NCBI GenBank assembly: GCA_001657315.1
Contig: LYSV01000049.1
Location: forward strand, 1-64,000
Length of the DNA stretch: 64,000 bases
Direction of reading: 5' to 3'
From: Flammeovirgaceae bacterium BBD 1991-12
GTDB lineage: Bacteria; Bacteroidota; Bacteroidia; Cytophagales; Cyclobacteriaceae
The position numbers and the translations under genes were made by a program. Positions within the stretch are counted from its first letter, which is position 1; each line of letters opens with the position of its first letter. The notes beneath the pieces were generated by a model, which saw nothing but the letters and a program-made list of their open reading frames with translations, ran no database searches and had not been told where the DNA came from. This document shows, in pieces, positions 55,934 through 63,734 of the stretch.

Positions 55934-58900
55934 TTAACTCAGGTGGGCATCTGTATCTTTTACCGCTTTGTTGGCCACTTCCGAGGGTGTAAACTTAAAG
56001 TAGGCTTTAAAACACTTGGTAAAATAAGAGGGGTCAGTAAATCCTACCTGATAGGCTACCTCGGAAATGTTGATATCGTCTGCCTTCTGGAAGATGTCCA
56101 GTGCCCTTTTCATACGCATGGCCCGGATAAACTCTCCTGCTGACTGCCCGGTCAGAGCCTTAAGCTTACGGTGAAGCTGCATCCGGCTCATTCCCATCTG
56201 ACGCTGAAACTCTGTGACATTGAACTGATGATCGGAAATATGCTCTTCAACGATCCCGGATACTCTCAGTAGAAATTCTTCTTCACGGTTTTCAACGATC
56301 GCCTCACTGGGCTCGGTTAATATTTCCTTTCTCAGTCTCGACCGGATTTTTACCCTCTGCCCTATCAGGTTGGAGATCCTGAGCTCCAGTTCATTCATAT
56401 CGAACGGTTTGCTCACGTATTCGTCAGCGCCAACGTTCAATCCCTCCATGCGCGACTCGTCATCTGCCCTTGCAGTAAGCATGATCACCGGAATATGACT
56501 GGTCTGTTCATTTTGCTTTATCCTTTCAGTAAACTGCATACCATCCATTTTAGGCATCATTACATCCGTAACAATGATATCCGGGATAAGCTCAAATGCC
56601 AGTTGCTCACCTTCCTGGCCATCAGCAGCTATTAATATATCATATTTATCCGAAAGGCATTCCCTTATATAATTCCGTAGTTCGGCATTGTCTTCCACCA
56701 CCAGTATCAGGTGCCGGTTTTCATTTCTTACCCCGGTCAGGTCGCGCACCAGTTCATGGCTCACTGACTCATTGGTATCAGCGCCTGCAGATAACGGATT
56801 CAACAGTTCTATGGGTATTTCAACAGTAAAGGCTGAACCTCTGCCCTGCTCACTTTCCACATTGATGGTGCCATTGTGCAGGTCAATCAGCTCTTTTGTT
56901 AAGGCGAGACCGATGCCACTTCCTTCGTTCTCCTTTGTAGTGGATGAATCAACCTGGTAGAACCGGTCAAACAGCTTTTTCAGACTCTGACGCGGAATAC
57001 CTGAACCGGTGTCGGTAATGGATACCTTGAGCATGTGAGTGTTGTGGTCAGAAGCAAAACTTATAGCCGCTTTCATGGAAACCTCTCCGCCCTTTGGCGT
57101 GAATTTAAAGGCATTGGACAATAGATTATACACTATTTTTTCAAGCTTCTCCTCATCAAAATACACCTGTGCCTTTTCTGTAACATCAAAGCTGAAGTCA
57201 ATTGACTCCTTCTCGGCCAGTTCTGAAAATGATTTGGCGATCCTCCTGAAAAAATGACCTATATCACCAATATCCACCTTCAGTTTCATTTTACCAGCCT
57301 CCAGTTTGGCAAGGTCCAGCAACTGATTGATAAGGTCCAGCAGACGTTTGGCATTCCTTCTCATAAGGTCCAAATCCTGCCGTTCCTTCTCATCGATATG
57401 CTCATCCCTTGCCAGCTTTCTTTCCAAAGGGCCAAGAATTAGGGTAAGAGGTGTACGAAATTCATGGGATACATTGGCAAAGAACCGGGACTTCAGTTTA
57501 TCCATTTCCCGTAATTTTTCTGCCTGGATGGCCAGTTGTTTGGCCTGCAGGGATAGTTCGCGGGTTTGGTTCTTGATCTCTTCGGTCCGGTCTTCCACGG
57601 CTCTTTCCAGTCGCTCCTTATCCCTTGTCAGTTGATGTGAACGCCACTTGACGATCAGGAAGATCCCAAAGCCGACCAGGCATGTGTACAGGGAGTAGGC
57701 CCACCAGCTTCTGTACCATGGCGGCAATACCGTAAAATGGTAAAGGGTTTCATTGGTTACATTGCCATAGGCATCCCTTGCCTTTACTTTAAACGTGTAA
57801 TTCCCTTCCCAAAGGTTGTTGTAACCCACGGAGTTATTACGGGTCCAGTCAGACCAATATTCGTCAAAGCCATCAAGCCGGTACTGGTATTCATTATTCT
57901 CAAGGTAATCATAGGAGGGGATACTGAAGTTAAAGCCCAGAGAGTTTTGTTGAAAGGTAAGGGGTTCACCCTTCCCGGAGCCTGCACCGTTGCTCACACC
58001 CTTGTGCCGAACCTGGGTGATCAGTACCTCCGGAGCAGTTTGGGTCAGGGGAATACTCTTGTCATACCTTATTAGCCCTGAGGGTCCGCCAAACCATACG
58101 ATGTCACCTTCAGAATAGATATCATTAAAGGTGCTTTTGCATAATTCAAGCAGTTTCGTGTTTTGCCAGTGATAATCCCCGTTTTCAAAAACACCATATT
58201 CAAATACCCCGGCATTATCAGAATATATCCAGATATTCCCATTCTGTTCTTCTTTCAGACCGGCTACACGCATGTCCAGCTTTTTGTTGTTCAGGTATTC
58301 TACCTGATACATGATATCCTCACATTTCCACAAAGCACCTTGTGAAACTACATACGTACCGGTTTGGGTGGTATAAATACGGCTGCGCGAGATCTCAAGA
58401 CCCGGGGGCAGTTCCAACCTGCGTATTCCTTCGAAGGACAGCGTATCGTTATGAATCTTCCTGCCGGATACCTGAAACAGCCCCCCTGCTCCCGCAATCC
58501 AGATATTGCCGCTATCATCCTCAGCCAGTGCATAAACCTCCCCGAATTTTTCAACATCCCTGACCTTCAACCATTTCACCTCTTTATCACCTATTTTCAT
58601 AGCCATCAGGCCTCTGAAGCCGCCTGCCACTACCAGATTGGGAGTAAACCTTGAGCTGACCATATCCATGATATTGACAAAAGCTGAGGTGATCGGCTTC
58701 AGGCTGGTGTGATGTAAAACATAAAAACTGTAAGGACCTCCTATCAGTAGCTTGTCACCGGCGCGTATCATGGCCGAACAGCCCACCTTTACTTCTTCCA
58801 TGCGCCTGAATGTGGGGTGGACCCCTCCCTCAAGGCGAAAGAGACCTGTAGAGGTGCCTACATAAAGTTTTTCTTCATAGCGGGCAATCTTCTGCACAGA

Positions 58901-59917
58901 TCCATCAATGCCAAGGTCATTGGACATAAACGAAACACCACTGTTTATTTCTATCCTTGCTATTCCGTTCATGGTCAGGACCCACAGTCCGTCCTGATTG
59001 TCCACAAACAATTGCAGGGTTTCATTGGTAGGAAGGCCATTGGAGGTATTAAAATGATTGAGAATACGGCCTTTTTTGTTGAGAACAAAAACACCATTTT
59101 TTCTGGTAGCTATGGCATATTTGTCAGTCCCGATCTTTTGAGCTGAATATACCTGACTCTTTCCCAGTAGTGTATCGGCGTCGTTCGTAAAGGGTGTCAC
59201 CTCAACCCCGTCAAACAACAGTAATCCTTTAAAAAGGTCTGCTACAAGTATCCGCTGTTCATCAAACTGCATTATTCCACGGACGATATAGTCGGCCAGT
59301 TTATCTCCGTTATCCAGCGGCTGGAACCTACCATCGTAGTAGCTTTGCAGGCCTTTTCTGAATTGCCACAAATAGATCTTCTGATCCGTTTCGAATGAAA
59401 AAAAACCTCCAGCATCTGCTTTGATTGATTCGCCAGGCTTATCATGAATGAAAACCAAAACGCGGAGCTCAGTAACAAAATAGACCCTGTCATCCCTGAA
59501 GTGAATGGCGCTAACAAGTCTGAATTTATCCTTCTGATGATTTATGCTGTCCGACAGGGAAGTATACTGATAATCTCCTGAAGGGGTGACACTCAGATAA
59601 CCGAACTCCTTCTGTCCACCCACATAAATTCGTCCATCAGAACGAACCTTTATGCAATGAGCCGGAAGCTTTCCAGGAAGCTCTATAATCTGCCATTGGG
59701 AACCGTCAAAGATCAAAACACCATTTTCATTGGCAATATAGATCACCCCATCCTCTCCCTGATCAATATCCGTACTTTTTGAATGGCCATTATATTCACC
59801 AGGTGTAAAGACTTTAATATGCGGAACACCCATCTCGGATCTGCCGGGCGGCACGCTGTAGAGATAACCAAAGCTCAGCAGCAGCCAACTAAGTAGTATA
59901 CAGGATTTTGGGATCAT
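55934..59917 (-). CDS. Hybrid two-component system regulator (propeller sensor, kinase, receiver, AraC)
   Basis: 1327 residues from ATG 59917 (frame open to 59989; a -7 element at 59949-59956 supports the inner start). Signal peptide SCILLSWLLLSFGYLY, a periplasmic two-propeller sensor ~35-650 (many GLWVLTMNGIARIE-like repeats), Y_Y_Y domain ~665-730 (YRLDGFDEYWSDWTRN), TM ~740-760, HisKA with His818 in NVSHEFRTPLTLIL, ATPase (NLLSNAFKFTPKGGEV, GSGIGLALTKEL), receiver with Asp1118 in IIVTDVMMPKMDG, and AraC HTH at ~1215-1315 (VAYQVGFTDPSYFTKCFKAY). Such proteins sense glycans or other ligands and act on genes without a separate regulator. No polysaccharide-utilisation genes are adjacent. Confidence 0.93.
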   Translation of the reverse strand: MIPKSCILLSWLLLSFGYLYSVPPGRSEMGVPHIKVFTPGEYNGHSKSTDIDQGEDGVIYIANENGVLIFDGSQWQIIELPGKLPAHCIKVRSDGRIYVGGQKEFGYLSVTPSGDYQYTSLSDSINHQKDKFRLVSAIHFRDDRVYFVTELRVLVFIHDKPGESIKADAGGFFSFETDQKIYLWQFRKGLQSYYDGRFQPLDNGDKLADYIVRGIMQFDEQRILVADLFKGLLLFDGVEVTPFTNDADTLLGKSQVYSAQKIGTDKYAIATRKNGVFVLNKKGRILNHFNTSNGLPTNETLQLFVDNQDGLWVLTMNGIARIEINSGVSFMSNDLGIDGSVQKIARYEEKLYVGTSTGLFRLEGGVHPTFRRMEEVKVGCSAMIRAGDKLLIGGPYSFYVLHHTSLKPITSAFVNIMDMVSSRFTPNLVVAGGFRGLMAMKIGDKEVKWLKVRDVEKFGEVYALAEDDSGNIWIAGAGGLFQVSGRKIHNDTLSFEGIRRLELPPGLEISRSRIYTTQTGTYVVSQGALWKCEDIMYQVEYLNNKKLDMRVAGLKEEQNGNIWIYSDNAGVFEYGVFENGDYHWQNTKLLELCKSTFNDIYSEGDIVWFGGPSGLIRYDKSIPLTQTAPEVLITQVRHKGVSNGAGSGKGEPLTFQQNSLGFNFSIPSYDYLENNEYQYRLDGFDEYWSDWTRNNSVGYNNLWEGNYTFKVKARDAYGNVTNETLYHFTVLPPWYRSWWAYSLYTCLVGFGIFLIVKWRSHQLTRDKERLERAVEDRTEEIKNQTRELSLQAKQLAIQAEKLREMDKLKSRFFANVSHEFRTPLTLILGPLERKLARDEHIDEKERQDLDLMRRNAKRLLDLINQLLDLAKLEAGKMKLKVDIGDIGHFFRRIAKSFSELAEKESIDFSFDVTEKAQVYFDEEKLEKIVYNLLSNAFKFTPKGGEVSMKAAISFASDHNTHMLKVSITDTGSGIPRQSLKKLFDRFYQVDSSTTKENEGSGIGLALTKELIDLHNGTINVESEQGRGSAFTVEIPIELLNPLSAGADTNESVSHELVRDLTGVRNENRHLILVVEDNAELRNYIRECLSDKYDILIAADGQEGEQLAFELIPDIIVTDVMMPKMDGMQFTERIKQNEQTSHIPVIMLTARADDESRMEGLNVGADEYVSKPFDMNELELRISNLIGQRVKIRSRLRKEILTEPSEAIVENREEEFLLRVSGIVEEHISDHQFNVTEFQRQMGMSRMQLHRKLKALTGQSAGEFIRAMRMKRALDIFQKADDINISEVAYQVGFTDPSYFTKCFKAYFKFTPSEVANKAVKDTDAHLS

Positions 59918-59948
59918 TATACCTTTCTGGATCAATGTAAAAGTATAA

Positions 59949-59956
59949 CAAATGTA
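59949..59956 (-). promoter_or_regulatory. TAnnTTTG-type -7 element for the hybrid regulator gene
   Basis: On the minus strand this is TACATTTG, a full match to the -7 consensus, 31 bp before the ATG at 59917. No convincing -33 element. It would give a short leader and argues for the inner start codon. Confidence 0.4.
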
Positions 59957-60097
59957 ACGTTTCCTGCGGCTGCAGGTTTGAAATTGCATCCCAACTACTG
60001 GTAGTTATGTAACACATCATAGCGTATCACCAGTCCCGGCAATAATTTTTATCCCATTTTATGGAACCTGAACAGGCACCGGCCCGTTTAAATACAT

Positions 60098-60151
60098 ATG
60101 AGTTACAATTATCCTATATTCGTCTGTTGTTGTACTTGTTACATAGATTAG
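60098..60151 (+). CDS. Cysteine-rich leader peptide of the cysM operon
   Basis: 17 codons from ATG 60098 to TAG 60149-60151, peptide MSYNYPIFVCCCTCYID. Codons 10, 11, 12 and 14 are all TGT (Cys), in a protein too short to fold. It is followed 45 bp later by a terminator hairpin and 107 bp later by the first gene of a cysteine-synthesis operon. A ribosome short of Cys-tRNA would stall at 60125-60139; one that is not would reach the stop codon and cover the antiterminator strand at 60154-60161. This is how amino-acid leader peptides work. Known families: trp, his and leu leaders in Proteobacteria and polycysteine leaders in mycobacteria. Expression here is inferred. Confidence 0.75.
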   Translation: MSYNYPIFVCCCTCYID

Positions 60152-60203
60152 GCGAAAGGTCATTGTAATAGATTTAGGTTATTGAAAAAAGTCTGGGCCT
60201 TTC
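60137..60203 (+). promoter_or_regulatory. Competing RNA pairings of the cysteine attenuator
   Basis: Two mutually exclusive pairings can be drawn. Antiterminator: GAAAGGTC (60154-60161) with GGCCTTTC (60196-60203), 8 pairs including one G-U; it would use up the 5' arm of the terminator. Protector: TGTTACA (60137-60143) with TGTAATA (60164-60170), 7 pairs with one G-U, enclosing the antiterminator strand in its loop. Drawn by eye; no energies were computed. Confidence 0.6.
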
Positions 60204-60223
60204 CATTCGGGAAGGCCTTTTTT
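60196..60223 (+). terminator. Rho-independent terminator in the cysM leader
   Basis: 9-bp stem (60196-60204 with 60209-60217, one G-U pair) with an ATTC tetraloop, followed directly by six T (60218-60223). It lies 35 bp before the cysM ATG, and the only plus-strand reading frame before it is the Cys-rich leader peptide. So it terminates transcription within the leader, not after a gene: an attenuator. Confidence 0.85.
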
Positions 60224-60258
60224 AGTCTCCCCGGATCCGGACAGGTCTTTTTTGGATC

Positions 60259-61194
60259 ATGATTACAACAGCATCAACACTCCGGCAAGAGATTGAAAAC
60301 ATAGGAAGCTTCATTGGAAATACTCCCCTTTTTCCTCTGAGCAGCCTCACCATGAAAACAAGCGTAAAGCTTTTCGCAAAACTCGAATGGCAGCAGTTTG
60401 GCGGAAGTGTAAAAGCACGGCCTGCTTTCAACATTTTCAAAAATGCAGTTGAAAAGGGTCTTCTTTCCGAGGATAAAACACTTTTGGACGCATCCAGTGG
60501 AAATACAGCTATTGCCTACGCTTCCATTGGAGCAGCGCTAAATATACCCGTAACCATTTGCCTTCCCGCCAATGCTTCCCACGAAAGGAAAGATATGCTA
60601 AGGGCACTCGGTGCCGCGATCATTCTCACTTCGGAGTTTGGTTCCACTGATGAGGCTCAGGAGACTGCTCTTGAATTGTACCGGTCCGACCCGGAAAAAT
60701 ATTTTTATGCGGATCAGTACAACAATTCCGATAACTGGAAGGCTCACTATCACGGAACCGCCGAGGAGATCATTGAACAAACGGAAGGTCAGATCACACA
60801 TTTTGTGACGGGGCTTGGCACCACAGGCAGCTTCACGGGCATTGGAAAAAAACTGAAGGAACGCATCCCGGAAATAGAATTGATCGCGTTGCAGCCCGAC
60901 TCCGCTCTTCACGGAATGGAAGGCTGGAAACACCCCGAGACCGCCCGGGTACCGGGTATTTTTCAACGTGACCTCGCCGATCATTACCTGGAAATTGATT
61001 CCGACGAGGCCATGAACATGCTTAAGCTCTGCGCACGAAAACAAGGACTGATGATCAGCCCCTCTGCCGCAGCCAACCTGACCGGAGCTCTCAAAATAGC
61101 TGAAAAAATCGACCAGGGTGTAGTGGTCACTTTATTCCCGGACAATGCCGAAAAGTATTCCGACGTACTAAAAAGCCTTTTCGCCAATGACTGA
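60259..61194 (+). CDS. cysM: PLP-dependent cysteine synthase of the CysM/CysK family
   Basis: 311 residues, normal for the family. PLP Lys52 in FGGSVKARPAFNIFK; phosphate and substrate loops DASSGNTAIAYASIG and VTGLGTTGSFTGIGK; the C-terminal SPSAAANL motif holds the Ser that binds the PLP ring. Context decides the role: the next three genes encode a JAMM protease, a ubiquitin-like sulfur carrier and its activating enzyme, the mycobacterial CysM-Mec-CysO-MoeZ set in which CysM uses O-phosphoserine and thiocarboxylated CysO. I infer the same here; use of free sulfide with O-acetylserine is the alternative. The stop overlaps the next start by 8 bp. Confidence 0.92.
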   Translation: MITTASTLRQEIENIGSFIGNTPLFPLSSLTMKTSVKLFAKLEWQQFGGSVKARPAFNIFKNAVEKGLLSEDKTLLDASSGNTAIAYASIGAALNIPVTICLPANASHERKDMLRALGAAIILTSEFGSTDEAQETALELYRSDPEKYFYADQYNNSDNWKAHYHGTAEEIIEQTEGQITHFVTGLGTTGSFTGIGKKLKERIPEIELIALQPDSALHGMEGWKHPETARVPGIFQRDLADHYLEIDSDEAMNMLKLCARKQGLMISPSAAANLTGALKIAEKIDQGVVVTLFPDNAEKYSDVLKSLFAND

Positions 61195-61621
61195 TATGGT
61201 CAAAAGCATAGAGATCAGTTCTTCAGCATGGAACGTAATGAAGGCAGATGCTGAATCCCGCTTTCCCAATGAATGTTGTGGCTTTTTCTATGGCATGGAA
61301 GGAAGCATCAGAAAAGTGGATCGTGTACTGGTTGTAAAAAACAGCAAAAAAGGTGACCAGCGAAGGAGATTTGAAATATCGCCTGAAGATTACCTCAAAG
61401 CGGAATTGTATGCCGTGCAGCATGATACTGATCTTTTGGGAGTGTATCATTCCCATCCCAATCACCCGGCCAAACCTTCCACACATGACCTGGCACAGGC
61501 GGCACCTGTCTTTTCCTATATTATAATAAGTGTGGTAAACGGAAAAGTGGATGAGATCACTTCATGGCAGTTGAACGACCAGTCAGTATTTGACAAAGAA
61601 GAAATAACGATAAGTAAATAA
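61187..61621 (+). CDS. mec: JAMM/M67 metalloprotease, Mec-like
   Basis: 144 residues from ATG 61187 (overlapping cysM by 8 bp; ATG 61196 is also possible). JAMM active site complete: Glu29 in FPNECCGFFYG, and the HxHx7SxxD motif His88, His90, Ser98, Asp101 in HSHPNHPAKPSTHD, which binds Zn2+. In mycobacteria Mec frees cysteine from the CysO-cysteine adduct; related proteases (QbsD, HcyD) trim residues after the GG of their sulfur carriers. Both jobs are possible here because this operon's carrier has a seven-residue extension. Cytosolic. Confidence 0.92.
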   Translation: MTDMVKSIEISSSAWNVMKADAESRFPNECCGFFYGMEGSIRKVDRVLVVKNSKKGDQRRRFEISPEDYLKAELYAVQHDTDLLGVYHSHPNHPAKPSTHDLAQAAPVFSYIIISVVNGKVDEITSWQLNDQSVFDKEEITISK

Positions 61622-61629
61622 ATTTCAAA

Positions 61630-61923
61630 ATGGCAAAAGTAATTATCCCAACTCCGCTGCGTAAATTTACCGGAAATCAACGGTCACTGGCAACCAGTGG
61701 TGTCACAGTAAAAGAAGCTATAACCGATGTAGCCTCCAGTTTTCCAGATCTGCAAAAGCATCTGTTCGATACGAACGGAAACATCAGGGATTTCGTAAGG
61801 ATCTATGTGGGTGAAGAAGACATCAAGGTACTCGACAACGAGTCCACGAGACTATCCGAAGATAGTGTGGTCAGCATTATACCGGCCATTGCCGGGGGAT
61901 CAGACAAAAACCTACAGCAGTGA
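61630..61923 (+). CDS. cysO: Ubiquitin-like sulfur carrier protein, CysO/MoaD/ThiS family
   Basis: 97 residues. Beta-grasp sulfur-carrier features: VIIPTPLRKFTGNQRSLATS, TVKEAITDVASSFPDLQKHL, FVRIYVGEEDIKVLD, DSVVSIIPAIAGG. The GG that is adenylated and thiocarboxylated is at residues 89-90, but the chain continues with SDKNLQQ; typical CysO, MoaD and ThiS end at GG. So cleavage is needed before activation, probably by the JAMM protease encoded upstream. The stop overlaps the GTG start of moeZ. The gene lies 8 bp after mec. Confidence 0.92.
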   Translation: MAKVIIPTPLRKFTGNQRSLATSGVTVKEAITDVASSFPDLQKHLFDTNGNIRDFVRIYVGEEDIKVLDNESTRLSEDSVVSIIPAIAGGSDKNLQQ

Positions 61924-63059
61924 TAAATTTCAGTAAAGCCGAGCTGGAAAGATACAGCCGGCATCTCATTATACCGGACTTCAATATTGAGGGCCAGCGC
62001 AGGCTCAAGGAAGCCCGGGTACTCGTCGTAGGCACCGGTGGGCTTGGCGCTCCCCTGCTGCAGTATCTAACGGCTGCGGGAGTCGGAACCATAGGCATCG
62101 TGGATTTTGATATAGTGGATGAATCCAATCTGCAGCGGCAGGTATTGTTTTCAGTGAATGATGTGGGCTCTTCCAAAGTGGAAGCGGCCGTAAAACGGCT
62201 CAGAGCGCTGAACCCCCATGTTCAGTTCAATATCCACAATGTTCGACTTACTTCAGAAAACGCTTTGAACATCCTGCGGAATTACGATGTAGTAGCCGAT
62301 GGTACTGACAACTTTCCGACACGCTATTTGGTCAATGACGCATGTGTAATTCTGGATAAGCCGAATGTCTATGCCTCCATTTTCCGTTTTGATGGTCAGG
62401 TATCTGTTTTCAACTATGTGAATGAAGATGGTGAACGTGGACCCAACTACCGGGACCTCTTTCCGGCCCCTCCTCCTCCCGGACTGGTACCCAGTTGCGC
62501 CGAAGGGGGTGTGATAGGGGTCTTGCCAGGGATAATAGGTAGCCTGCAGGCCAATGAGGTTATCAAGGTTATCACCGGTATAGGAGACCCTCTGACGGGC
62601 CGGTTATTCCTTTTTGACGCCCTTACGTTTGAAACCAGAACCGTCCGGCTGGTGAAGGACCCGGACCAAAAGCCAATCACTGCACTGATAGACTATGAGA
62701 TCTTCTGTGGTATGAATGGCGAAGAAAGCGAGGAGGATCCTGTGAAGGAAGTGACTGTATCAGAGCTGGCGGCCCTGCAAAAGGAAAGCAACAGCTTCCA
62801 ACTGATCGATGTCCGTGAACCTTACGAATTTGAAATTGCGCAAATTGGAGGCACACTTATTCCTTTGGACCAGATTGAGGAGCATGTAAATGACATCTCA
62901 TCTGATAAAAAGGTGATCATACACTGCCGTAGTGGAGTAAGAAGCGCACGCGCCATTCGCACCCTCGAGAAAAAGTACGGCTTCAACAATCTCTACAACC
63001 TGAAGGGAGGCATACTGGCCTATGCGGAAGAAATAGATGATAGTTTGGCGAGATATTGA
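61920..63059 (+). CDS. moeZ: ThiF/MoeB-type activating enzyme fused to rhodanese, MoeZ-like
   Basis: 379 residues from GTG 61920, overlapping the cysO stop by 4 bp (GTGA). N-terminal E1-like domain: ATP-binding VVGTGGLGAPLLQYLTAAGV, NLQRQVLFS, DNFPTRYLVND, and Cys193 in VPSCAEGGVIG. C-terminal rhodanese ~280-375 with active Cys336 in IIHCRSGVRSARAIRTL. No CxxC pairs, so no structural zinc site, as in the mycobacterial MoeZ group and unlike E. coli MoeB. It adenylates the carrier GG and transfers sulfur to form the thiocarboxylate. It may serve several carriers. Last gene of the operon. Confidence 0.94.
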   Translation: MINFSKAELERYSRHLIIPDFNIEGQRRLKEARVLVVGTGGLGAPLLQYLTAAGVGTIGIVDFDIVDESNLQRQVLFSVNDVGSSKVEAAVKRLRALNPHVQFNIHNVRLTSENALNILRNYDVVADGTDNFPTRYLVNDACVILDKPNVYASIFRFDGQVSVFNYVNEDGERGPNYRDLFPAPPPPGLVPSCAEGGVIGVLPGIIGSLQANEVIKVITGIGDPLTGRLFLFDALTFETRTVRLVKDPDQKPITALIDYEIFCGMNGEESEEDPVKEVTVSELAALQKESNSFQLIDVREPYEFEIAQIGGTLIPLDQIEEHVNDISSDKKVIIHCRSGVRSARAIRTLEKKYGFNNLYNLKGGILAYAEEIDDSLARY

Positions 63060-63136
63060 GGAATTCACCGATCGGTTTCCCAAACAGACCGGTTGGCTCT
63101 ACATAGAATTGATTATATTTGAAAAAAGCTGAAAAA

Positions 63137-63412
63137 ATGTCAAAATTCACAATAACGGTGGATGACGCTCAAATAGAGAGATTTATTCTTAACATGTTAA
63201 GTCTTTTGAAGAATAATCCCGGAATAAATTTCAGGAAAGAAGGAAATAACTTCGTGATTACCACTGATGTTGAAAAAGAAAATCTGATGCTGGCCGGTGA
63301 GCCTTTGACATGGGAGGAACTAGTGGCAGACATCACTAAATCGGAGGAACAATATCAAAAGGGCGAATTCCTTACTTCACAGGAATTAAAGGACAATGCC
63401 AAAAGCTGGTAG
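63137..63412 (+). CDS. Antitoxin-like small protein paired with a RelE/ParE toxin
   Basis: 91 residues from ATG 63137 (an in-frame TTG at 63119 is less likely). A short N-terminal segment (FTITVDDAQIERFILNMLSL) and an acidic end (PLTWEELVADITKSEEQYQK, GEFLTSQELKDNAKSW) that resembles the toxin-wrapping tails of RelB/ParD-type antitoxins. It is called by context: the next gene, overlapping by 17 bp, is a RelE/ParE toxin. Confidence 0.75.
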   Translation: MSKFTITVDDAQIERFILNMLSLLKNNPGINFRKEGNNFVITTDVEKENLMLAGEPLTWEELVADITKSEEQYQKGEFLTSQELKDNAKSW

Positions 63413-63734
63413 AACTGTTTACCAGACTGTCTGGAATAAAACCCCTCAAAAGAGACTTAAGCAGATACACGATTATATCAAGTACAAAAAACTTGAACCA
63501 TTGAGCGCTGAGCGATTGACAAATGAACTAATCAGCTTTGGTGATAAGCTATGTATTTCACCCGGCAGTCGCCTGATCATTAAAGAACTTTCAAATGACC
63601 GGTTTACATACAGAACTGCAACGTATAAAAAAGTATATCGATTCATTTTCAGGATCAATGAAAAGCGTAGGCAAGTAATAATTACCAACCTGTTTCACAA
63701 TAAAAGAGACCCTGCCAGATTAAGGAAATATTAA
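63396..63734 (+). CDS. RelE/ParE-family toxin
   Basis: 112 residues. RelE/ParE fold pattern: VWNKTPQKRLKQIHDYIKYK helices, then strands LIIKELSNDRFTYRTATYKK, VYRFIFRINEKRRQVIITNL and the end FHNKRDPARLRKY. Toxins of this family cleave mRNA on ribosomes (RelE) or poison gyrase (ParE); the branch is not clear. Overlaps its antitoxin gene by 17 bp, the typical coupling. Confidence 0.85.
   Translation: MPKAGRTVYQTVWNKTPQKRLKQIHDYIKYKKLEPLSAERLTNELISFGDKLCISPGSRLIIKELSNDRFTYRTATYKKVYRFIFRINEKRRQVIITNLFHNKRDPARLRKY

Follow-up and report, generated by a model that had tools for sequence, protein, structure and literature searches.

Introduction

Attenuators of the trp/his type have a leader in which codons for the end-product amino acid abound, 2:3 and 3:4 helices that exclude each other, and a terminator before the first gene. 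Cysteine sensing in the Bacteroidota is, to our knowledge, largely undescribed. Poly-Cys leader peptides of Actinobacteria were reportedly treated by Canestrari et al. in 2020. In Actinobacteria, Cys runs lie near the end of short frames before cys genes and are described as being without conserved terminator hairpins (PMC1262725); these leader peptides are also treated in two further papers (PMC9094748; PMC13236596). In the Rhodobacterales, one report describes the uORFC-8-2 motif of cysS, in which a terminator comes after two tandem Cys codons in a short upstream frame, and proposes cysteine-dependent attenuation (PMC8632094). Within the Bacteroidota, leader-peptide attenuation before amino-acid operons has been described for Flavobacterium psychrophilum (PMC9723704).

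Here we analyze a 64,000-nt stretch of DNA from Flammeovirgaceae bacterium BBD 1991-12 (GCA_001657315.1, contig LYSV01000049.1, positions 1-64,000, forward strand), referred to as the window. An earlier note on this DNA had proposed a cysteine-responsive attenuator before an operon of cysteine genes. We likewise predict a ribosome-mediated, cysteine-responsive transcription attenuator of the trp/his type, and put the probability of this reading at roughly 0.87.

Results

Organization of the locus

The operon comprises four genes, whose names were given by gene arrangement; the best NCBIfam names of the products agree in kind and mostly fall under the NCBIfam cut-offs.

60259 to 61194, plus strand: cysM-like cysteine synthase of the PALP family, first operon gene (Pfam PF00291; best NCBIfam match cysM, below the model cut-off)
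61187 to 61621, plus strand: mec-like JAB metalloprotease (Pfam PF14464)
61630 to 61923, plus strand: cysO-like sulfur-carrier protein of the ThiS family (Pfam PF02597)
61920 to 63059, plus strand: moeZ-like adenylyltransferase with a rhodanese domain, ThiF-rhodanese (Pfam PF00899 and PF00581)

The 5' neighbor of cysM is a divergent two-component hybrid gene on the minus strand, whose longest frame spans 55934-59989. By eye, it is likely to start at an internal ATG (59917), which would widen the intergenic gap from 269 to 341 nt. Since this gene is divergent, no transcript from it would need termination at 60195-60223. Directly 3' of moeZ, on the plus strand at 63119-63734, are two small overlapping frames of 97 and 112 aa that resemble a toxin-antitoxin pair by eye and have no Pfam or NCBIfam match.

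The leader and RNA features upstream of cysM are as follows.

60098 to 60151, plus strand: leader reading frame of 17 codons, translated as MSYNYPIFVCCCTCYID and a stop, the predicted leader peptide
60113 to 60128, plus strand: strand 1, pairing with 60146-60159 in the predicted ribosome-free fold
60125 to 60139, plus strand: Cys codons 10-12 and 14 (TGT TGT TGT ACT TGT), proposed stall site, from the sequence and Cys enrichment in relatives
60154 to 60161, plus strand: strand 2, antiterminator 5' strand (duplex with 60196-60203, -9.5 kcal/mol; matched-versus-swapped test over 74 elements)
60195 to 60204, plus strand: strand 3, terminator 5' arm, common to the antiterminator (hairpin; in an alignment of 54 elements, all 10 column pairs show compensatory changes)
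60209 to 60223, plus strand: strand 4 (3' arm, 60209-60218) and T run, predicted intrinsic terminator (-16.6 kcal/mol)

Much of this had been described in the earlier note and was borne out, namely the 17-codon frame with Cys at codons 10, 11, 12, and 14, the 8-bp pairing of 60154-60161 with 60196-60203 (8 pairs, duplex -9.5 kcal/mol), and an operon beginning 35 bp past the terminator, with cysM at 60259. The terminator itself is also present, but its stem, given as 9 bp, is slightly longer, with 10 pairs from 60195 to 60218 around a loop at 60205-60208 and a T run up to 60223. The leader stop codon lies 12 nt beyond the last Cys codon. The element before cysM in the window is single and of the early-stop type.

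Runs of TGY are common in this genome, with 37 CCCxC-type and 51 CCCC-type matches (18 and 4, respectively, in reversed-pattern controls). Among the TGY-run loci examined here with terminator loops of up to 8, only the window frame combined a short frame with a terminator after it. A rescan with loops of up to 15, to which loci L239, L272, and L273 were added, returned the window frame and, on contig C194, the leader of sulfite reductase; it also gave three weak matches having no TGY run in the tail of the frame. No Bacteroidota-type promoter match was found within 110 nt before the leader ATG in the window, and a cmscan of 59800-60500 against Rfam (up to E 5) gave five matches, all far under gathering scores, with no T-box or riboswitch among them.

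Alternative folds of the leader RNA

The segment 60098-60225 folds better than all 200 of its dinucleotide shuffles (z -4.27), and its ribosome-free fold contains the terminator together with a 1:2 hairpin (60113-60128 with 60146-60159) unmentioned in the earlier note. We then folded only the RNA downstream of a modelled ribosome, up to strand 3. With the edge of the ribosome placed 9 nt beyond the last Cys codon, the antiterminator formed (-11.7 kcal/mol as a hairpin including its enclosed stem), and with the ribosome at the stop codon it did not (-3.2). Equilibrium folding was rejected as a test of the switch: once strand 4 is present the terminator beats the antiterminator in every state, and when pairing across the ribosome is allowed the modelled antiterminator probability in the window is at most 0.03. 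Since the terminator always wins at equilibrium, the switch must be kinetic and dependent on the order of synthesis, as in other attenuators. The folding energies asked for in the earlier note are -16.6 kcal/mol for the terminator and -11.7 kcal/mol for the antiterminator hairpin.

Conservation upstream of cysM

A search of 148 genomes of the same family with CysM as query (threshold 1e-60) gave matches in 26 genomes: the window's own, 18 that hold 19 loci of close homologues at 55-65% identity, and 7 at about 39% identity, which are paralogues. No CysM match was found at 1e-60 in the three same-genus genomes examined, and the distribution of the operon is therefore patchy. Upstream regions were scored by a rule calling for a short frame with 3 Cys in 6 residues within its last 30 codons, followed at most 110 nt after the stop by a terminator stem of at least 7 pairs and at least 4 G-C, all within 500 nt of cysM. 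The window passed, as did 17 of the 18 close family loci with enough upstream sequence (L011 failed; L024, which ends at a contig edge, was left out, and L022 and L023 are nearly identical). The 10 cysK-like paralogue loci (7 in relatives, 3 in this genome) all failed the rule; two of them (L029, L031) have Cys-rich frames without a terminator.

For the phylum, the best 80 loci among the matches listed (more exist) were taken; removal of six same-genome duplicates (L112, L119, L121, L122, L130, L176) left 74, which with the 19 family loci made 93. A poly-Cys short frame with a terminator occurred within 500 nt upstream in 69 of these 93 cysM loci, against 0.51 expected from a control of 1.03 Mb from the same loci (cysM and beyond, reverse strand), which is mostly coding sequence. 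By itself, a Cys-rich frame is not uncommon (15 expected in the control); what is rare is its pairing with a terminator. When 4 of 6 residues had to be Cys, 63 of 93 loci retained frame and terminator (0.14 expected). The earlier note had named missing conservation of Cys codons and hairpins in relatives as grounds for dropping its reading; both are conserved in these 69 loci. One positive, L190, is doubtful by eye, and L140, at first doubted, has a good leader 458 nt upstream. The 24 negative loci include six with a leader further upstream, four from Balneolales, and eight titled outside the Bacteroidota or just "bacterium"; in the six Bacteroidota loci that remain (L011, L123, L124 with only 79 nt upstream, L132, L162, and L186) no element was found under the rule.

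RNAalifold applied to 54 elements hand-chosen from the 75 reference elements, several divergent or redundant ones being left out, found the terminator helix alone, with compensatory changes at all 10 of its pairs. A covariance model of the element was rejected as a genome-wide finder, as it mainly scores a common terminator type: it gave a match at 0.01 in 232 of 392 phylum genomes, and about 6 of 30 inspected loci had a clear poly-Cys leader (L192, L193, L196, which is the window, L197, L203, and L218). Two of its matches, named by eye as lying at a beta-carbonic anhydrase-like gene (L194, CTCC) and a branched-chain aminotransferase-like gene (L195), are doubtful.

The cysM leader on a contig titled Rhodopirellula (Planctomycetes; L178) resembles those of two Flavobacteriales loci (L179, L182), and we suspect a mis-binned contig. 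In an Acidobacteria MAG (L181), a frame ending in CCCCC directly before its stop lies 26 nt before the cysM match; no terminator was found there, and this leader could be translational.

Reading frame of the leader

In a matched control, other residues scored in the same way over the same upstream regions each passed at no more than 4 of 93 loci, except Val and Leu (39 each). The apparent enrichment of these two arises because both are the other frames of TGY runs. For the frame test, 75 of the 77 elements were used (L023 and L032 dropped). In 72 of the 75, the Cys frame offers an ATG within 30 codons, is uninterrupted across the cluster, and reaches its stop ahead of the terminator; the other two frames do so in 3 and 18, and we therefore rejected the Val and Leu readings of the run. 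In 52 elements the Cys frame is the sole one that qualifies; in the window a Leu-type frame qualifies too. Clusters hold 3 to 9 Cys codons, a mixture of 312 TGT and 92 TGC over the elements.

With a TTTG/TAnnTTTG-like sequence as the promoter consensus that we assumed for the relatives, a site ends within 30 nt before the leader ATG in 22 of 58 loci, where 200 rounds of shuffling gave 5.2 on average and 13 at most; its end lies either 4-9 or 17-25 nt before the ATG. Nine of the 58 have a site 46-78 nt before the ATG, and the window, also one of the 58, has none. For the closer group, the promoter positions would mean leaderless or nearly leaderless translation of the leader.

Complementarity and spacing of the antiterminator

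Pairing, spacing, and capture were evaluated on 74 of the 77 elements, with L023, L032, and the far copy of L129 dropped. Strand 2 paired with its own strand 3 at a mean of -10.9 kcal/mol, versus -8.25 (sd 0.25) for permuted arms; none of 10,000 permutations was as good, a figure that overstates certainty as related loci are not independent. Compared to shuffled strand 2 sequences, the mean z was -2.3, with 42 of 74 elements under -2 and 60 of 74 better by at least 1 sd. Terminators of the CTCCAC type showed hardly any gain of matched (-8.74) over within-type swapped arms (-8.66), whereas the other types were clearly better matched. Strand 2 is poor in some elements (L009, the downstream copy of L120, L126, and L188).

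In the 59 of 74 elements with pairing at -8 kcal/mol or better, the median distance from the last Cys codon to the start of strand 2 is 14 nt (IQR 12-15, sd 4.4). Relative to the stop codon the position of strand 2 is far more scattered (sd 10.9; random placement, 15.0), and over all 74 elements the corresponding values are 5.8 and 11.7. The constant design feature is thus the distance from the Cys codons to strand 2, not to the stop codon. A ribosome on the last Cys codon would leave strand 2 wholly free in 55 of the 59 (47.7 at random), and a ribosome at the stop would mask it at 0.64, which is not clearly better than the 0.56 (sd 0.058) of random placement. The earlier note had a ribosome at the TAG covering strand 2. 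This suits the window, with its stop 12 nt past the Cys codons, but not the 49 of 77 elements in which the stop lies at least 30 nt past the last one; in these late-stop elements the leader frame usually runs through the antiterminator strand.

Folding of the ribosome-downstream RNA alone gave a mean probability of strand 3 capture of 0.68 with the ribosome stalled at the last Cys codon, 0.14 with it at the stop, and 0.40 with shuffled spacers, the stop-state value being low partly through less free RNA. Capture reached at least 0.5 in 60 of 74 elements when stalled (and fell below it in the other 14), in 1 of 74 at the stop, and in 11 of 74 with shuffled spacers.

Tandem units and loci without a terminator

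Two leader-terminator units stand in tandem in 14 of the 93 cysM loci.

0-500 nt before cysM: tandem loci L114, L115, L117, L120, L125, L126, L127, L129, L145, L149, L155, L159, L184, and L016

In the 13 loci where the copies could be compared, the stop of the upstream copy is closer to its Cys codons in 11, equal in one (L120), and farther in one (L126).

Four Balneolales cysM loci (L134, L142, L154, L166) have frames with at least six consecutive Cys codons, after which no intrinsic terminator was found. All four show, by eye, an ACCGG...CCGGT pairing after the stop, with pyrimidine-rich sequence, and the output of these leaders is perhaps through Rho or translation. On the minus strand of L134 and L142, about 840 and 620 nt before cysM, respectively, divergent MCMCCC leaders with terminators lie ahead of a rhodanese-led operon (the rhodanese identity was tested for L134); their codons suggest joint sensing of Met and Cys.

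Leaders upstream of other genes

In six cysM-negative loci (L133, L137, L150, L158, L160, L165), the leader stands ahead of a same-direction upstream gene, the first of the apparent operon, which encodes a peroxiredoxin in L133 and L137 and an EamA transporter in L160. In L165, L150, and L158 it precedes a sulfite/nitrite reductase-like gene and then a tetrapyrrole methylase (tested in L165, by eye in the others). These upstream leaders often mix Met and Cys, e.g., MMCMCCC in L165.

The genome of the window itself has a second leader, on contig C194 (loci L272 and L239), with a GTG start (VKTRIHIRPVCCNCICCCPGDDFVRKT, then a stop), a 10-pair hairpin, and a T run before sulfite reductase. Further up, a frame ending in CCCCCCC lies before a ferredoxin-like gene (by eye) and a PLP gene of Cys/Met metabolism; no clear terminator was found after this frame. 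Among 22 sulfite-reductase loci including this one, four more have leader and terminator (L225, L229, L240, L242), with MMCCC-like runs in L229 and L240 and MCSCC in L225, and L241 is doubtful. Among 28 cysK loci, leader and terminator are clear in L257, L263, and L267 and perhaps present in L245 and L249. In L263 and L267 the leader precedes the gene upstream of cysK, with a match of serine-acetyltransferase type in L263. Poly-Cys frames for which no terminator was found stop 47-66 nt before cysE (L244, L246, L253, and L259, all of one family) or cysK (L250, L255, L256); these are weaker cases, since Cys frames alone are not rare. Covariance-model matches included a leader before cysK (L192), the same site as L257 (L203), and a leader before an ABC-transporter ATPase (L218), which we guess, from resemblance, belongs to a transporter of a sulfur compound.

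Discussion

Computationally, the locus shows what defines the trp/his type: a short frame enriched in Cys codons, a terminator between leader and cysM, and an antiterminator freed by modelled stalling. The reading rests on these elements, their conservation, the frame, the complementarity of the strands, and the ruler from Cys codons to strand 2, from which we infer leader translation, stalling, readthrough, and the link to cysteine. In the proposed mechanism, a ribosome would translate the 17-codon frame as RNA polymerase proceeds along the leader. When charged tRNA-Cys is scarce, the ribosome would stall on the Cys codons with its leading edge just short of strand 2 (60154-60161), which, being free, would pair with strand 3 (60196-60203) once that is made; no terminator would form and cysM-mec-cysO-moeZ would be transcribed. 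When cysteine is plentiful, the ribosome would reach the stop and mask strand 2, and strands 3 and 4 would terminate transcription at 60195-60223, 35 nt before cysM. If the leader is not translated, strand 1 would hold strand 2 and the terminator would form as well.

The leader might instead act at the level of translation, with a stalled ribosome affecting either reinitiation or how accessible the cysM start is, and with an incidental hairpin. Such an output has parallels: poly-Cys frames occur without a found terminator at the four Balneolales cysM loci and at several cysE/cysK loci (stop about 47-66 nt before), the mycobacterial cysteine case is termed translation attenuation in PMC13236596, and PMC1262725 reports no conserved terminator hairpin for mycobacteria. 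Yet a T-run terminator separates leader from gene in the window and at 69 of 93 loci, its stem covaries, and strand 2 matches strand 3. Moreover, 60219-60290 folds no better than shuffled sequence (z +0.36), and therefore gives no sign of a structure sequestering the start site. We consider this explanation unlikely for the window. Stalling might also answer to a signal other than low charged tRNA-Cys, for instance thiol oxidation or a metal or antibiotic that acts on Cys decoding. This would fit the leader before a peroxiredoxin gene at two loci (L133, L137), but it is quite unlikely, as most of the genes that such leaders precede serve cysteine synthesis or are part of sulfite-reductase operons.

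That the hairpin is a plain terminator or insulator for upstream transcription, and the poly-Cys frame chance or the shadow of a TGY repeat, gains something from the frequency of TGY runs in this genome and from the covariance-model matches, which mostly lack a Cys run among the 30 inspected and so point to a common terminator type. Against it stand a co-occurrence of 69 loci observed versus 0.51 expected, a start and stop specific to the Cys frame, the mixed use of TGT (312) and TGC (92), and the divergence of the upstream gene, and we regard it as very improbable. With 3 to 9 Cys clustered in each leader, the frame might be kept for its product, a functional Cys-rich micro-peptide (e.g., binding a metal or persulfide), but this is hardly credible, as the peptides differ by eye in nearly everything but Cys, the spacing from Cys to strand 2 is fixed in RNA terms, and the leaders precede several cysteine and sulfur genes.

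With attenuation of transcription as the preferred reading, the survey supports the proposal of the earlier note as right and understated. We lean toward a regulon of cysteine attenuation, in places including methionine, that would extend across the Bacteroidota without a dedicated regulator protein. Separate poly-Cys leaders would stand before cysM-mec-cysO-moeZ, cysE-cysK, cysK, sulfite reductase, and possibly transporters, with a ruler of about 12-15 nt from the last Cys codon to the antiterminator. Tandem attenuators, the upstream one usually of the early-stop and the downstream one of the late-stop type, would compound termination, making the response steeper or splitting it into two steps, and a Balneolales branch would have kept the leader while another output replaced the terminator.

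If true, cysteine sensing in a major phylum of gut, soil, and water sits in an RNA leader and can be read from sequence, and the poly-Cys tag marks sulfur-assimilation operons throughout the phylum, hinting at what uncharacterized genes downstream of it may do. Because single, tandem, early-stop, late-stop, and terminator-less forms all occur naturally, the rules by which attenuators are designed become testable, and this also suggests that poly-Cys leaders have been joined to different outputs in different lineages. To a specialist the mechanism would be no surprise; its breadth, the fixed ruler, and the tandem arrays would be.

The mechanism, and cysteine attenuation elsewhere, are already known; the phylum, the gene set, the poly-Cys version with a conserved terminator, and the tandem form appear to be new. 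In the open-access papers searched, no cysteine attenuator was described for the Bacteroidota, although an example may be listed in the appendix of PMC9723704. The statement in the earlier note that the phylum had no described example may hold for cysteine at most, but not for attenuation in general, given the amino-acid attenuation reported for F. psychrophilum (PMC9723704). Those attenuators share the phylum and the general mechanism with the window, and the main-text passages of that paper name no cysteine case. The uORFC-8-2 motif likewise has Cys codons in a short upstream frame and then an intrinsic terminator; it has two Cys codons, is confined to cysS, and belongs to the Alphaproteobacteria, whereas the present elements have 3-9 Cys per cluster, precede cysM and sulfite-reductase genes, and occur in Bacteroidota. 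With trp/his-type attenuators the window shares a leader rich in codons for one amino acid, here Cys, the 2:3 versus 3:4 helices, a predicted 1:2 hairpin, and a terminator just before the first gene. The Bacteroidota element differs from them in that it is proposed to sense cysteine, in a stop that trails the last Cys codon by at least 30 nt in 49 of 77 elements, and in its tandem form in 14 of 93 loci. As in the window, the poly-Cys leaders of Actinobacteria are short frames ahead of cys genes, with runs of Cys codons toward their ends. The terminator-less loci of Balneolales are closer in kind to these, whereas the other Bacteroidota elements combine the leader with a conserved intrinsic terminator and a matching antiterminator.
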